A stretch of DNA of 38,734 nucleotides from Bacteroidota bacterium (GTDB lineage: Bacteria; Bacteroidota; Bacteroidia; Cytophagales; Cyclobacteriaceae), in the NCBI GenBank assembly GCA_013285945.1, contig JABDGP010000011.1, forward strand, positions 20,307 to 59,040, given 5' to 3'. The translations under genes and the position numbers were made by a program. Position 1 is the first letter of the stretch; each line of letters opens with the position of its first letter. Shown here one piece after another: positions 11,969 through 16,708 of the stretch. The notes beneath the pieces were generated by a model. That model saw only the letters and a program-made list of their open reading frames with translations. It did not search any database and was not told the DNA's origin.

Positions 11969-13846
11969 ATGGCGAAGGATAGTATGGAATATAATGAATC
12001 GAGCATTAGATCGCTCGACTGGCGCGAGCACATTCGCTTACGCCCCGGAATGTACATCGGCAAGCTGGGCGATGGCTCAAGCAAAGACGATGGCATTTAT
12101 GTGCTTGTAAAAGAAGTGATCGACAATTGCATTGACGAGCACATGATGGGCTATGGTAAAATAATTGACGTTAAGATTACCGACCAAAAAGTCGTGGTTC
12201 GCGATTATGGCCGGGGTATTCCGCTGGGAAAAGTAGTCGATGTTGTTTCGAAAATAAATACAGGCGCCAAGTACGACTCTGGTGCGTTCCAAAAATCGGT
12301 GGGGTTGAATGGAGTGGGTACGAAAGCCGTGAACGCTCTCTCTAATTACTTTAAAGTGCAAGCTTTTCGCGATGGCGCAACAAAACTGGCCGAGTTTAAA
12401 AAGGGAGTTCTCACCAACGACCCTAAACAATCAAAGTCGCCCGATAAGAATGGAACACTGGTAGAATTTGAACCGGATGATACGATGTTCAAGCACTATC
12501 ACTTCATTCCCGAATATCTGGATGACTTGATGTGGAACTATGCATTCCTGAATGCCGGTCTTACAATTAATTACAATGGACGGAAGTTTTATTCGAAAGA
12601 TGGACTGCTTGATCTGTTAAAACAAAAGTCCGACCCTGAAGAAATACGCTACCCGATTATTCATTTTAAAGGAGAAGATATTGAAGTTGCACTGACGCAT
12701 GGCAATCAATATGGTGAAGAATATTATTCTTTTGTCAATGGTCAGAATACAACGCAAGGCGGTACACACTTAGCGGCATTCCGCGAAGGAATAGTGCGTG
12801 GCGTGCGGGATTTTTATAAAAAGGATTTTGACGCAGCCGATATCCGTGCAAGTATCATCGGAGCGGTTGCTGTTCGAGTGCAGGAACCCGTGTTTGAATC
12901 GCAGACCAAAACAAAACTTGGTTCGATCAACATGGCGCCAGAAGGTGTTTCGGTGAAAAACTTTGTTGGTGATTTTGTAGCGAAAGAGTTGGAGATCTAC
13001 TTGCACAAAAATGCAACCGTGGCCGATTCGGTACTCAAGCGGATATTGCAATCCGAACGCGAGCGCAAAGAAATCGCCGGTATAAAAAAACTTGCCAACG
13101 AACGGGCAAAGAAAGCAAACCTTCACAATAAAAAACTTCGCGACTGCCGCTTTCATTTTGATGATCAAAAAGGAGAGAAGGGAACAGAGTCGGTGATTTT
13201 TATAACCGAAGGAGATTCGGCCAGCGGTTCGATCACTAAATCGCGTGATGTAGAAACGCAGGCCGTTTTCAGTTTGAGAGGTAAACCACTCAACTGCTTT
13301 GGACTCACCAAAAAAGTAGTTTACGAAAACGAGGAGTTCAATTTGCTGCAGCATGCGCTAAATATCGAAGATGGACTTGATGGTTTGCGTTACAACAAGG
13401 TGATTGTAGCAACTGATGCAGACGTGGATGGTATGCACATTCGCTTACTGCTGATGACTTTCTTTTTGCAATTCTTTCCAGACTTGGTGAAGGCCGGGCA
13501 TGTCTATATTTTGGATACTCCGCTCTTTCGTGTTCGAAATAAAAAAGAAACCATTTATTGCTACAGCGAAGAAGAACGACAAGATGCTGTGAGTAAATTA
13601 GGGAGCAAACCTGAGATCACACGTTTTAAAGGATTGGGAGAAATTTCGCCGGAAGAATTTGGAACATTCATTGGTGAGAACATACGCCTTCAGCCTGTAT
13701 TGATCGATAAAGAAAAGCACTTGATCAAGACACTCGAATTTTACATGGGCAAGAATACGCCCGACCGTCAGGATTTTATTATTGACAACTTGCGGATTGA
13801 ATTGGACAAGGTAGAACCACTCGAAGAAAAAGAAGTTGAAGCTTAA
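11969..13846 (+). CDS. parE: DNA topoisomerase IV subunit B
   Basis: The 625-residue ATPase subunit of a type IIA topoisomerase. The GHKL ATPase has [10 protein letters not shown] (near residue 47), DYGRGIP and the ATP-lid motif [16 protein letters not shown]. The transducer follows. The TOPRIM domain has the catalytic [10 protein letters not shown] (Glu414) and the metal-binding DADVDG (Asp483, 485, 487). It is the short B subunit without the insertion of proteobacterial GyrB. Placement six bases before parC identifies it as topoisomerase IV (decatenation of daughter chromosomes) rather than gyrase. Start ATG 11969 gives a normal N-terminus with RPGMYIG soon after. Confidence 0.93.
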
Positions 13847-13852
13847 ACTATA

Positions 13853-16708
13853 ATGGCAAAGAAGAATTTACCTGTTAAGGCGAAAAAAGGAGAAGACGGA
13901 GTAGTCCACTCCATCGCTATTGATGGCATGTACGAAAACTGGTTTCTCGACTATGCTTCGTATGTAATCTTAGAGCGCGCTGTTCCGCGTATTGAAGACG
14001 GCTTTAAACCCGTGCAACGCAGAATCATGCATGCGCTAAAAGAGATGGACGATGGTCGCTTTAATAAAGTGGCCAACGTAATCGGAAGTACGATGCAGTA
14101 TCATCCGCATGGCGATGCTGCCATTGGTGAGGCCACTGTCAATTTAGGTCAAAAGGAAATTTTATTTGATACACAAGGAAACTGGGGGGATGTGCGCACA
14201 GGTGATCCTGCGGCAGCCCCTCGTTATATTGAAGTGCGGCCTTCCAAGTTTGCATTGGACGTAGTCTATAACCCTCAGACCACCGAGTGGCAGCTTTCGT
14301 ACGATGGAAGAAAAAAGGAACCAGTAACTCTCCCTGTAAAATTTCCTTTGCTGCTGGCACAAGGTGTGGAGGGGATTGCCGTTGGCTTGTCCACAAAAAT
14401 ATTGCCTCATAATTTTTGCGAGTTAATAAAGGCATCGATTGATGTATTGAAAGGAAAGAGCCCTAAAATCTATCCCGACTTCCCAACAGGTGGTATTGCC
14501 GATTTTTCGGAATATGATCAGGGTTATCGCGGTGGAAAAATAAAAGTTCGTGCCCGAGTAGAAATCATTGACAAGAAAACGATAGCGATCAAAGACATTC
14601 CTTTTGGAACCACCACCACTTCGGTGATGGAATCCATTGTGAAAGCAAGTGAGAAAGGAAAGATTAAAGTCAAGCAGGTGGTTGACAATACTGCCAAAGA
14701 CGTTGAGATTCTCGTGAACCTTCAGCCCGGACTTTCGCCTGAGATTGCCATTGATGCACTGTATGCATTTACTGATTGTGAGGTTTCCATTTCACCAAAC
14801 GCCTGTGTGATTGTTGGCGACAAGCCAATGTTCATGAAAGTGAACGAAATCCTGAAAGTAAATACCGAGAATACAGTGGTATTGCTGAAGCGCGAACTGG
14901 AAATAAGACGCGGTGAACTAATGGAGAAGATTTTATTTTCTTCACTTGAAAAGATATTTATCGAAAAAAGAATTTATCGCGACATTGAAGAGTGCGAAAC
15001 GTTTGAAGATGTCATCTCCACCACAGATAAAGGACTGAAGCCTTATAAGAAACAATTCTATCGCGAGATCACTCGTGATGATATACTCCGATTGTTGGAG
15101 ATTCGGATTAAAAGGATTTCTAAATACGATTCGTTCAAGGCTGATGAACTGATGCGCGACCTTGAAAAAGAATTGAAGGAAGTGCTTCATCACCTCAAAC
15201 ATTTGACTGAGTACGCAATCGCTTACTATCAAAGTTTGTTAGATAAATACGGAAAAGGTCGTGAGCGTAAAACTGAAATAAAGAGCTTCCAATCTGTTAC
15301 GGCAACTGAAGTAATTGCAAACAATCAGAAATTGTACGTAAACAAGGAAGACGGCTTCATAGGCTGGGGACTGAAAAAAGACGAGTTCATTGCCGATTGC
15401 TCTGAGTTGGACGATGTGATTGCCATTCGCCGTGACGGCAAAGTGAAAATCAGTCGTATCAGCGAAAAAGTGTTTATGGGCAAAGATATTTTGCATGTTG
15501 GCATCTGGAAAAAGGGTGACGAACGAATGGTTTACAATTTGATTTATAGCGATGGCAAGAGCGGAAAGACTTTTGCAAAACGGTTTGCTATGCCGGCTAT
15601 CATTCGTGATAAAGAATATAATCTCGATCAGGGAAACCCAAATAGCAAAGTTCATTATCTCAGTGCCAACCCGAATGGAGAAGCCGAAATTGTAGAAGTG
15701 AAGTTGAGCCAAAGCAGTACTGCCAGAAAGAAGATTTTCGATTTCGATTTTTCTGAAATGGAAATCAAGGGTCGCGGCGCTCGCGGAAACACAATTACAA
15801 AATATCCAGTGCGCAAAGTTGATTTTAAAGAAGCAAAAGGCTCTACACTCAGCGGACTTGAATTATGGTTTGACGAAGCAAGCGGCCGACTAAACAAAGA
15901 CAAACGAGGCTGGCATGTAGGAAAATTTGATGGTGATGACCAGATTATTTCGATTACCAAATCGGGTAACTATAAAATTTCAAATTATGAATTGACAACC
16001 CGGTTTGAGCCGGAAAACAAAACCTTGCTGATCGAAAAATTCAATCCTAAGAAAGTTATTTCGGCCGTGTATTGGGATGGTGAGAGCAAGCAACATTTTG
16101 TCAAGCGTTTTCAGATTGAGACAACGACGCCTGATAAAGAGTTCAATTTTATTACTGAAGGAATCGGTTCGCGGCTTGAGTTTGTCACAACTTCGGATAA
16201 TCCCGAGGTGGAAACTGAAGTAGTGAAAGGAAAAGGCAAGGATAAAGAAACTGAAGTTGTCAACCTTGAGGATCTTATTGATGTAAAGGGCTGGAAGGCA
16301 CTTGGCAACCGGCTGTCGCAACATAAGGTCACCAAAGTGAAACCGGTGGAGGAGCCGGAAGACACCGGCCTTGAAGAAGGTGATGAAGAAAACGAAATGA
16401 TGACTGTTGAAACCGGAAAAGGCTCTCAACCGTCAAAAAAAAAATGGGAAGAACCAACGGAGGGCGAGCAAGCAAGCCTCTTCGAAGCAAGCCAACAGCA
16501 ACAAAGCCAGCCGCTCATCAACGGGCAGCCAGCCAAAGGCAAAAACCAAAGACCAAAAGCCGAGCAAGCAGACCTCTTCGAAAAGGAAAAAGAAGAAAAT
16601 GAAAAGGTAGAGAGTAAGAAGATAAAAGTGGAGGGTGAAATGTTTAAAGAGAAAGGCGAAGACACAAAAGGATTTAGCCCAGGGGAAACGATAGATTTAG
16701 ATTTATAG
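13853..16708 (+). CDS. parC: DNA topoisomerase IV subunit A with long charged C-terminal tail
   Basis: The DNA-cleaving subunit, 951 residues. The breakage-reunion domain is near the N-terminus: PVQRRIMHAL, then QYHPHGDAA, with the catalytic Tyr125 in APRYIEVRP. The quinolone-determining region and coiled-coil gate follow, then a C-terminal beta-pinwheel (about 500-820) with divergent repeats. The last 110 residues or so are low-complexity, acidic, Lys- and Gln-rich and probably disordered. They hold two short motifs, QASLF (873-877) and QADLF (905-909), resembling sliding-clamp-binding peptides. The end, GETIDLDL, looks like a conserved tail. Co-transcribed with parE (six-base gap). The OmpA-family gene follows after 45 bases. 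Confidence 0.93.
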   Translation: MAKKNLPVKAKKGEDGVVHSIAIDGMYENWFLDYASYVILERAVPRIEDGFKPVQRRIMHALKEMDDGRFNKVANVIGSTMQYHPHGDAAIGEATVNLGQKEILFDTQGNWGDVRTGDPAAAPRYIEVRPSKFALDVVYNPQTTEWQLSYDGRKKEPVTLPVKFPLLLAQGVEGIAVGLSTKILPHNFCELIKASIDVLKGKSPKIYPDFPTGGIADFSEYDQGYRGGKIKVRARVEIIDKKTIAIKDIPFGTTTTSVMESIVKASEKGKIKVKQVVDNTAKDVEILVNLQPGLSPEIAIDALYAFTDCEVSISPNACVIVGDKPMFMKVNEILKVNTENTVVLLKRELEIRRGELMEKILFSSLEKIFIEKRIYRDIEECETFEDVISTTDKGLKPYKKQFYREITRDDILRLLEIRIKRISKYDSFKADELMRDLEKELKEVLHHLKHLTEYAIAYYQSLLDKYGKGRERKTEIKSFQSVTATEVIANNQKLYVNKEDGFIGWGLKKDEFIADCSELDDVIAIRRDGKVKISRISEKVFMGKDILHVGIWKKGDERMVYNLIYSDGKSGKTFAKRFAMPAIIRDKEYNLDQGNPNSKVHYLSANPNGEAEIVEVKLSQSSTARKKIFDFDFSEMEIKGRGARGNTITKYPVRKVDFKEAKGSTLSGLELWFDEASGRLNKDKRGWHVGKFDGDDQIISITKSGNYKISNYELTTRFEPENKTLLIEKFNPKKVISAVYWDGESKQHFVKRFQIETTTPDKEFNFITEGIGSRLEFVTTSDNPEVETEVVKGKGKDKETEVVNLEDLIDVKGWKALGNRLSQHKVTKVKPVEEPEDTGLEEGDEENEMMTVETGKGSQPSKKKWEEPTEGEQASLFEASQQQQSQPLINGQPAKGKNQRPKAEQADLFEKEKEENEKVESKKIKVEGEMFKEKGEDTKGFSPGETIDLDL
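16465..16582 (+). repeat. Duplicated 22-base unit in the 3' end of parC
   Basis: Two in-frame copies, at 16465-16486 and 16561-16582, are identical at 20 of 22 bases (they begin CGAGCAAGCA and end CCTCTTCGAA). They lie 96 bases (32 codons) apart and encode EQASLFE and EQADLFE. Such DNA-level identity in otherwise low-complexity sequence suggests a recent internal duplication or selection on both copies. Confidence 0.8.

Follow-up and report, generated by a model that had tools for sequence, protein, structure and literature searches.

Predicted clamp-binding peptides in ParC tails of Bacteroidota and a putative second tail behind an A10 run

The gene for topoisomerase IV subunit A (ParC) of a bacterium of the family Cyclobacteriaceae lies in a 38,734-nucleotide stretch of contig JABDGP010000011.1 (assembly GCA_013285945.1), the whole of which is called the window below. 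The tail of this ParC carries two peptides of the type that binds the bacterial sliding clamp DnaN, and they are preceded by a run of ten A residues (A10), behind which the same DNA can also be read as a Lys-rich tail. There is good confidence in the explanation that ParC of Bacteroidota bears a clamp-binding peptide and that, in the clade of the window, slippage on the A10 run gives rise to two tails. The more specific proposal, in which topoisomerase IV would be a client of the clamp throughout the phylum and parC of the Chryseolinea/window clade would be a second slippage gene of the dnaX type with both tails selected, is held with fairly good confidence.

Clamp-type motifs in the tails of ParC

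The first-pass annotation of the window had reported the pentapeptides QASLF and QADLF in the ParC tail, and both are present exactly at the positions, spacing and flanks described, 32 codons apart and in the contexts EQASLFE and EQADLFE. The match to the clamp-binding peptide, claimed at the same time, also stands. Both peptides fit the bacterial consensus Q-phi-x-[L/M]-[F/L], where phi is L, I, V or A, which is accompanied by a six-residue form (PMC13254535; this and all papers below are cited for excerpts of their text). QASLF, the pentapeptide of the first ParC motif, also occurs in DnaE, the replicative polymerase encoded by this genome, where it is followed by GG. The DnaN of this genome can be aligned over its length with clamps of solved structure, 8dt6 being the closest. 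Of the peptide pocket it retains the pieces TDGHR and VMP, and one of its Arg residues matches the Arg found near position 152 in the clamp; the pocket residues of the Escherichia coli clamp are named after PMC3716654. For E. coli, a solved structure shows the QLGLF peptide of DNA polymerase II (Pol II) bound to the clamp (PMC3716654), and its change to QLGAA shortens the stay of Pol II on the clamp (PMC5731819). Another clamp-type peptide, QISLF, was observed in a 341-amino acid (aa) open reading frame (ORF; locus L328, minus strand, frame 2) beside a second DnaE-like gene. This ORF perhaps encodes a mutasome-type protein with a clamp motif of its own.

The distribution of the motif was determined in ParC tails from genomes of the same family-level group, order, class and phylum. 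For tails without a ready locus, 140 regions were fetched, 60 of which belong to the own family group and 80 to other groups; they were selected manually, with one or a few taken from each group, and represent part of the listed matches. Two loci (L245, L270) contained no ParC tail and one (L246) came from a repeat genome and was left out; the final set, after removal of identical and open-ended tails, comprised 232 distinct tails from 66 family-level groups. When the five-residue form Q..[LMI]F or the six-residue form Q..[LM].[FL] was scored, 178 of the 232 tails contained a clamp form, about 7 being expected from shuffled residues. The motif was found in 75/96 tails of the own family (shuffle mean 3.3), 36/58 of the rest of the order (1.8), 63/73 of the rest of the class (2.1) and 4/5 of other classes (0.2), and at least one motif-bearing tail occurred in 56 of the 66 groups. 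For the form Q..[LMI]F alone, the 75/96 tails of the own family compare with a shuffle mean of 1.1 and a maximum of 4 in 200 shuffles. The position of the motif is also characteristic: it ends no more than 10 residues from the C-terminus in 162/232 tails (63 in the own family, 35 in the order, 60 in the class and 4 in other classes), and QLGLF at the very end is a common form in the own family. Neither form was present in 50 GyrA tails of the class (30 ready loci and 20 fetched, of 110 matching genomes), and the clamp form was found in none of 74 ParE tails of close relatives. The motifs in ParC tails are not a matter of chance, and the tethering of ParC to the clamp is likely widespread in the phylum. 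The internal double motif of the window would be a local form of a class-wide ParC feature.

Two reading frames behind the A10 run

The A10 run is the sole run of at least nine A or T in the window, and the whole genome of the bacterium (G000; 2.93 Mb in 130 contigs, 78% complete) contains five sites with at least ten A (six overlapping matches). Another of these sites, an A10 on the minus strand at position 1552 of locus L395 (G000:C9), lies inside a 147-codon open frame. The run was followed through loci L001-L111, which yielded 91 distinct usable tails. Dropped from the counts were a GyrA locus (L002), three loci at contig ends (L012, L078, L089), 14 copies of other tails, and two loci in which the ParC ORF is broken and the tail lies on a short ORF (L059, L073; both tails hold Q..LF). 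A run of nine to eleven A (A9-A11) occurs at the same place in 59 of the 91 tails and is A10 in 50 of them; in two genes (L054, L055) the contig ends before the tail does, which leaves 57 usable A-run genes. These genes are of two types. In 47 of them the clamp motifs are read in frame 0 (two motifs in 37 genes, one in 10), and in the other ten (L008, L009, L011, L053, L063, L076, L077, L079, L082, L084), which include Chryseolinea lacunae, C. serpens and Chryseosolibacter histidini, frame 0 encodes a Lys-rich tail. The +2 frame of all ten Lys-type genes encodes a clamp tail of 85-134 aa with two Q..LF. The first-pass annotation had staked its interpretation on the motif being kept in close relatives while the surrounding tail drifts. 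The motif is indeed retained, and the sequence around it does drift: one or two copies are present in 57/57 usable genes, in one frame or the other. In either type, a step of one base leads from the clamp frame to the Lys-rich frame; the exception is L068, where the Lys-rich frame is at +2. The length of the run is A10 in 8/10 genes with Lys in frame 0 and in 40/47 genes with the clamp motifs in frame 0.

For the window, an mRNA with ten A is computed to encode the 951-aa ParC with a tail isoelectric point (pI) of 4.9. An mRNA with nine A would give a 918-aa ParC, the last 57 residues of which have a computed pI of 12 and a charge of about +21, and one with eleven A would give a 916-aa ParC with a tail that is likewise basic. 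Outside the family group, runs of at least nine A were seen late in 3/136 ParC tails (L296, L297, L307). An A9 run is also present in L190, an own-family gene with a terminal QLGLF that stands outside the A-run analysis.

In a FastTree phylogeny of 90 ParC cores, from which the tail had been removed, the 57 A-run genes form one side of a branch with a support of 100, i.e. a single change; the tree is rooted at its midpoint and therefore does not separate gain from loss. Inside this clade the frame-0 type changes three times. One gene with Lys in frame 0, L053, has an A9 run and is placed among genes with the clamp motifs in frame 0; therefore, a single base may suffice to swap the frames.

The shifted frames were compared with a null in which synonymous codons were redrawn from each gene's own usage. 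In the ten Lys-type genes, the out-of-frame clamp tail is free of stops in its first 50 codons, 36.3 stops being expected, and its mean length is 105 aa against an expected 17 (P <= 0.01 in 6/10 genes, largest P 0.15). In the 47 clamp-type genes, the +1 frame contains 15 stops in the first 50 codons (45.8 expected), 554 Lys (349 expected) and 195 residues of the set C/F/W/Y/I/L/M/V (499 expected). It is at least 40 aa long with a K+R fraction of at least 0.28 in 43 of these genes. In 17 of the 47 genes, the +2 frame is no longer than 18 aa. Codon choice, the reverse gene type and an invariant-Leu control were used as tests for the 47 genes, instead of the length of the +1 frame.

The Leu of the motif is encoded by CTC in 37/37 sequences at both motif columns of an alignment of 37 two-motif sequences, and at the other 39 invariant Leu columns of this alignment any single codon reaches at most 62%. 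The sequences of the two-motif alignments had been picked for two Q..LF, so residue columns of 100% arise by construction and were not used as evidence; the picking fixes the residue and not the codon, to which the counts refer. CTC makes up 335/2576 of the other Leu codons in 38 two-motif ORFs, and the motif Leu is CTC in 8/71 cases in the rest of the own family and in 2/72 outside it. Over both types of A-run gene the proportion is 99/104, with 80/84 in the clamp-type and 19/20 in the Lys-type genes. The four non-CTC codons of the 47-gene set belong to L057, L068, L074 and L075, the first three of which are also among the four genes with a short +1 frame. Read one base later, CTC TTC becomes TCT TC., which gives Ser, followed mostly by Ser, in the Lys frame. 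These results indicate that the shifted frame is under selection in both gene types. The near identity of the two motif copies at the DNA level, also pointed out in the first-pass annotation, is real, and it is partly explained by the second frame. The idea that a dispersed DNA repeat underlies the fixed CTC was rejected: allowing for at most one mismatch, the genome contains CAAGCNNNCCTCTTCG 6 times, and only the two copies in parC are exact. A candidate RNA hairpin at CCUCUUCG was judged by eye only.

A run of the same kind is present in dnaX. In the genome of the window, the frame of dnaX ends two codons past an A10 run, and the tau part continues in another frame (L394). Two-ORF dnaX genes with ten A have been interpreted as cases of slippage, the A9 run of Thermus thermophilus being cited (PMC3711429). 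Among the best 30 of the 92 matching genomes of the family group (L398-L427), an A9-A11 run occurs in all 30 dnaX loci; five of these are single long ORFs, and the other 25 consist of two ORFs, so that tau can be made only by a shift. The dnaX gene thereby shows the same interchange of frames as parC and lends independent support to the slippage mechanism. It is therefore very likely that this family makes use of slippage on A10 runs, and the parC gene of one clade appears to do so too.

The parC locus and the end of the tail

The features of the locus are collected in Table 1. The 951-aa ORF is ParC and not GyrA, as shown by its match to ParC-type models, its ParE-like neighbour and the presence of a separate gyrA. 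The Pfam domain PF00521 covers aa 42-452 (E 1.7e-102), the ORF scores 1340 bits with NF009397 (cut-off 780) and 784 with NF007209 (cut-off 644), and the gyrA models remain far under their cut-offs; the separate GyrA, encoded elsewhere in the genome, passes the gyrA cut-offs. Besides this ParC and one GyrA, DnaN, DnaE and DnaX were found in the genome. All matches of the ParE-like ORF to NCBIfam gyrB/parE models are below their cut-offs. The last approximately 120 residues of ParC are of low complexity.

Table 1. Features of the parC locus, in window coordinates
Feature	Positions	Strand	Basis or remark
parE-like ORF (subunit B of topoisomerase IV), immediately before parC	11969..13846	+	Pfam GyrB-type domains
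parC (subunit A of topoisomerase IV); frame 0 encodes 951 aa with an acidic tail that bears the clamp motifs	13853..16708	+	ORF, PF00521, NCBIfam
A10 run, proposed slippage site	16435..16444	+	precedes both motifs; A9-A11 kept in relatives
+1 frame behind A10, Lys-rich tail, TAG stop at 16608-16610	16445..16610	+	
First clamp-type motif QASLF, aa 873-877, codons CAA GCA AGC CTC TTC	16469..16483	+	
Second clamp-type motif QADLF, aa 905-909, codons CAA GCA GAC CTC TTC	16565..16579	+	
Conserved C-terminal segment GETIDLDL, aa 944-951	16682..16705	+	similar segment in relatives

A GETIDLDL-like end is present in 47/47 tails with the clamp motifs in frame 0 and, in a looser pattern, in 10/10 out-of-frame clamp tails. 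In some other members of the family, a similar segment precedes the terminal QLGLF. The pattern G-x-T-I-[ED]-L-[DE]-[LF] of this end resembles the six-residue clamp motif without its Gln (compare QVELEF), and tails of group f121 carry GDQINLL or GDQISLL at the same place (L175, L180, L183); the end may be a weak extra clamp site. Five ParC tails (L033, L036, L040, L049, L052) contain short in-frame insertions within otherwise alignable sequence. Inserts such as SPYAEASGD, NPPYAKASGD, PFSAEATGD or FPFAPASGN resemble small palindromic elements inserted in coding DNA.

Proposed mechanism, its alternatives and its meaning

In the proposed mechanism, ParC of Bacteroidota would carry a clamp-binding peptide on a flexible tail and thereby tether topoisomerase IV to DnaN behind the fork, at the site of precatenane formation. 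In the window clade (the window lineage, Chryseolinea and kin), the motif is internal, once or twice, and not terminal, and RNA polymerase would slip on the A10 run and produce mRNAs with 9, 10 or 11 A's. One frame would give a ParC with an acidic tail, clamp motifs and a GETIELDL-type end; in the frame one base further on, the tail of ParC would be rich in Lys and resemble H1, and it would be expected to hold DNA in general. For tetramers of mixed composition, the clamp, bulk DNA or both could then be the target, which would amount to a division of labour between the two tails. Transcriptional slippage is favoured because the two gene types need opposite shifts and slippage can add or drop a base. 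The recruitment of topoisomerase IV to the clamp, put forward in the first-pass annotation, is partly supported by the fit to the consensus, the conservation of the motif and the QASLF of DnaE, with clamp binding still a prediction. The A10 run, the Lys-rich second frame and the class-wide occurrence of the ParC motif, of which the internal double motif is a local form, had been missed there.

It is unlikely that the QxxLF peptides bind a partner other than the clamp. The 54 tails without a motif, together with the fact that clamp binding is predicted from the sequence, would leave room for such a partner; however, the peptides agree with the clamp consensus in their variable middle positions, in their terminal location and in having both a five- and a six-residue form, and the pentapeptide is identical to that of the organism's own replicative polymerase. 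An alternative explanation for the run is a contingency tract of phase variation, in which slippage of DNA polymerase would heritably switch the frame and leave clamp-tail and Lys-tail cells mixed, with transcriptional slippage then being superfluous. A homopolymer run with three or more changes of the frame-0 type in the clade, one of them accompanied by a run of nine (L053), is what such a tract would look like. This explanation is nevertheless considered rather improbable: the frame seldom changes from one species to another (3 changes in 57 rows); A10 prevails in both gene types (8/10 and 40/47), so present run length does not account for most swaps; and the 25/30 dnaX loci that could make tau only via a shift point to slippage in expression. 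There is also a slim chance that programmed ribosomal frameshifting on A_AAA_AAA yields the second tail. A-rich heptamers are known -1 sites (PMC3711429), and a -1 shift suits the Chryseolinea-type parC and 24/25 two-ORF dnaX genes; the frame kept by the 47 clamp-type genes, however, is +1 (15 stops), whereas their -1 frame has 63 stops and is at most 18 aa long in 17/47, and a single type of site would need shifts both ways. Least credible by far, and largely contradicted, is an origin of the motifs and of the basic +1 frame in the composition of an acidic, Q/E/K-rich tail, with the Chryseolinea types as assembly errors in the run: homopolymers are error-prone and run-free tails with a basic +1 frame do exist (4/31), but shuffled tails give about 7 motifs against 178 observed, ten loci keep both frames, the named strains Chryseolinea lacunae, C. 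serpens and Chryseosolibacter histidini included, and CTC is fixed at the motif Leu.

Several observations weigh against clamp tethering combined with slippage on the A10 run. The motif is absent from 54/232 tails, 21 of which belong to the own family and others to group f60, where the tails are very short, and 26/33 tree rows without the A-run, Fulvivirga included, have no Q..[LMI]F. The GyrA and ParE controls have a small chance expectation (shuffle means 0.03 and 1.42). In DnaN, the position equated with E. coli Arg-246, according to our own residue mapping, is Asn. The lack of predicted structure in ParC residues 834-951 (AlphaFold; predicted local distance difference test, pLDDT, below 50) is weak evidence, given by a model that is poor as a whole (mean pLDDT 52). 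The +1 frame is short in 4/47 clamp-type genes (L057, L068, L074, L085), and in the 47 genes its length alone is not unusual (57 aa against 45 expected, median P 0.3). The +2 frame of the same genes is also biased (63 stops against 158.1 expected, 368 Lys against 163.2), and in 27/47 of them, the window included, it is at least 40 aa long and Lys/Arg-rich. Acidic DNA rich in GAA/GAG tends to read as basic in the +1 frame, and a +1 frame of at least 40 aa with K+R of at least 0.28 occurs in 4/31 run-free tails; this count replaces a first outgroup count of 9/38, which still contained copies of A-run tails. By itself, the basic make-up of the +1 frame is weak evidence, because some run-free tails show it too. 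Moreover, E. coli topoisomerase IV is kept from ongoing replication by SeqA filaments, and ParC and ParE of Bacillus subtilis are uniform over the nucleoid in most cells (reviewed in PMC11253446 and PMC12448304).

The components of the proposed system resemble several known ones. The same type of motif, often with the same letters and likewise C-terminal, is found in E. coli Pol II (QLGLF, residues 779-783) and in other clamp peptides (PMC3716654, PMC5731819); here, in contrast, the carrier is a subunit of a type II topoisomerase, and the motif of the window clade is internal, doubled in 47/57 genes and dual-coded. The dnaX gene, which encodes gamma and tau (A9 in T. thermophilus, ten A in two-ORF genes), shares with parC the A9-A10 run, two expected C-termini and the presence of either one in frame 0 (PMC3711429). 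However, the short product of dnaX stops soon after the run, whereas parC would encode a tail of its own in both frames of the same DNA. A link between topoisomerases and the clamp is known from eukaryotes, where topoisomerase II alpha and topoisomerase 1 are partners of PCNA (Table 1 of PMC9690074); here the clamp and the motif are bacterial, and no topoisomerase appears among the bacterial entries of that table. In E. coli, the C-terminal domain of ParC likewise joins topoisomerase IV to the chromosome machinery through MukB (PMC5061553), but MukB is a partner from an SMC complex and not the clamp.

No report of a topoisomerase IV-clamp motif was found in the open-access literature searched, which was covered mostly at listing level and included parts of PMC3716654, PMC5731819, PMC13220808, PMC12926913, PMC13254535, PMC4456610, PMC5061553, PMC10863985, PMC9690074, PMC5872134, PMC11253446 and PMC12448304. 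Similarly, no report of slippage or frameshifting in parC was found in the open-access literature searched, including parts of PMC3711429, PMC5009743 and PMC1088944; the main text of PMC3711429, taken apart from its supplements, uses neither the word topoisomerase nor parC. Clamp peptides and slippage of the dnaX type are thus both known, and for parC, as far as this literature goes, neither seems to have been described.

Summarizing, the route by which topoisomerase IV reaches freshly replicated DNA is unsettled, with MukB as a known recruiter in E. coli (PMC5061553). If the proposed reading is true, a clamp hook of ParC throughout the phylum would be a direct answer to this question and a bacterial counterpart of the link between PCNA and topoisomerases, and parC, with its dual-coded tail, would be a core housekeeping gene in which, unusually, two C-termini overlap in the same DNA.

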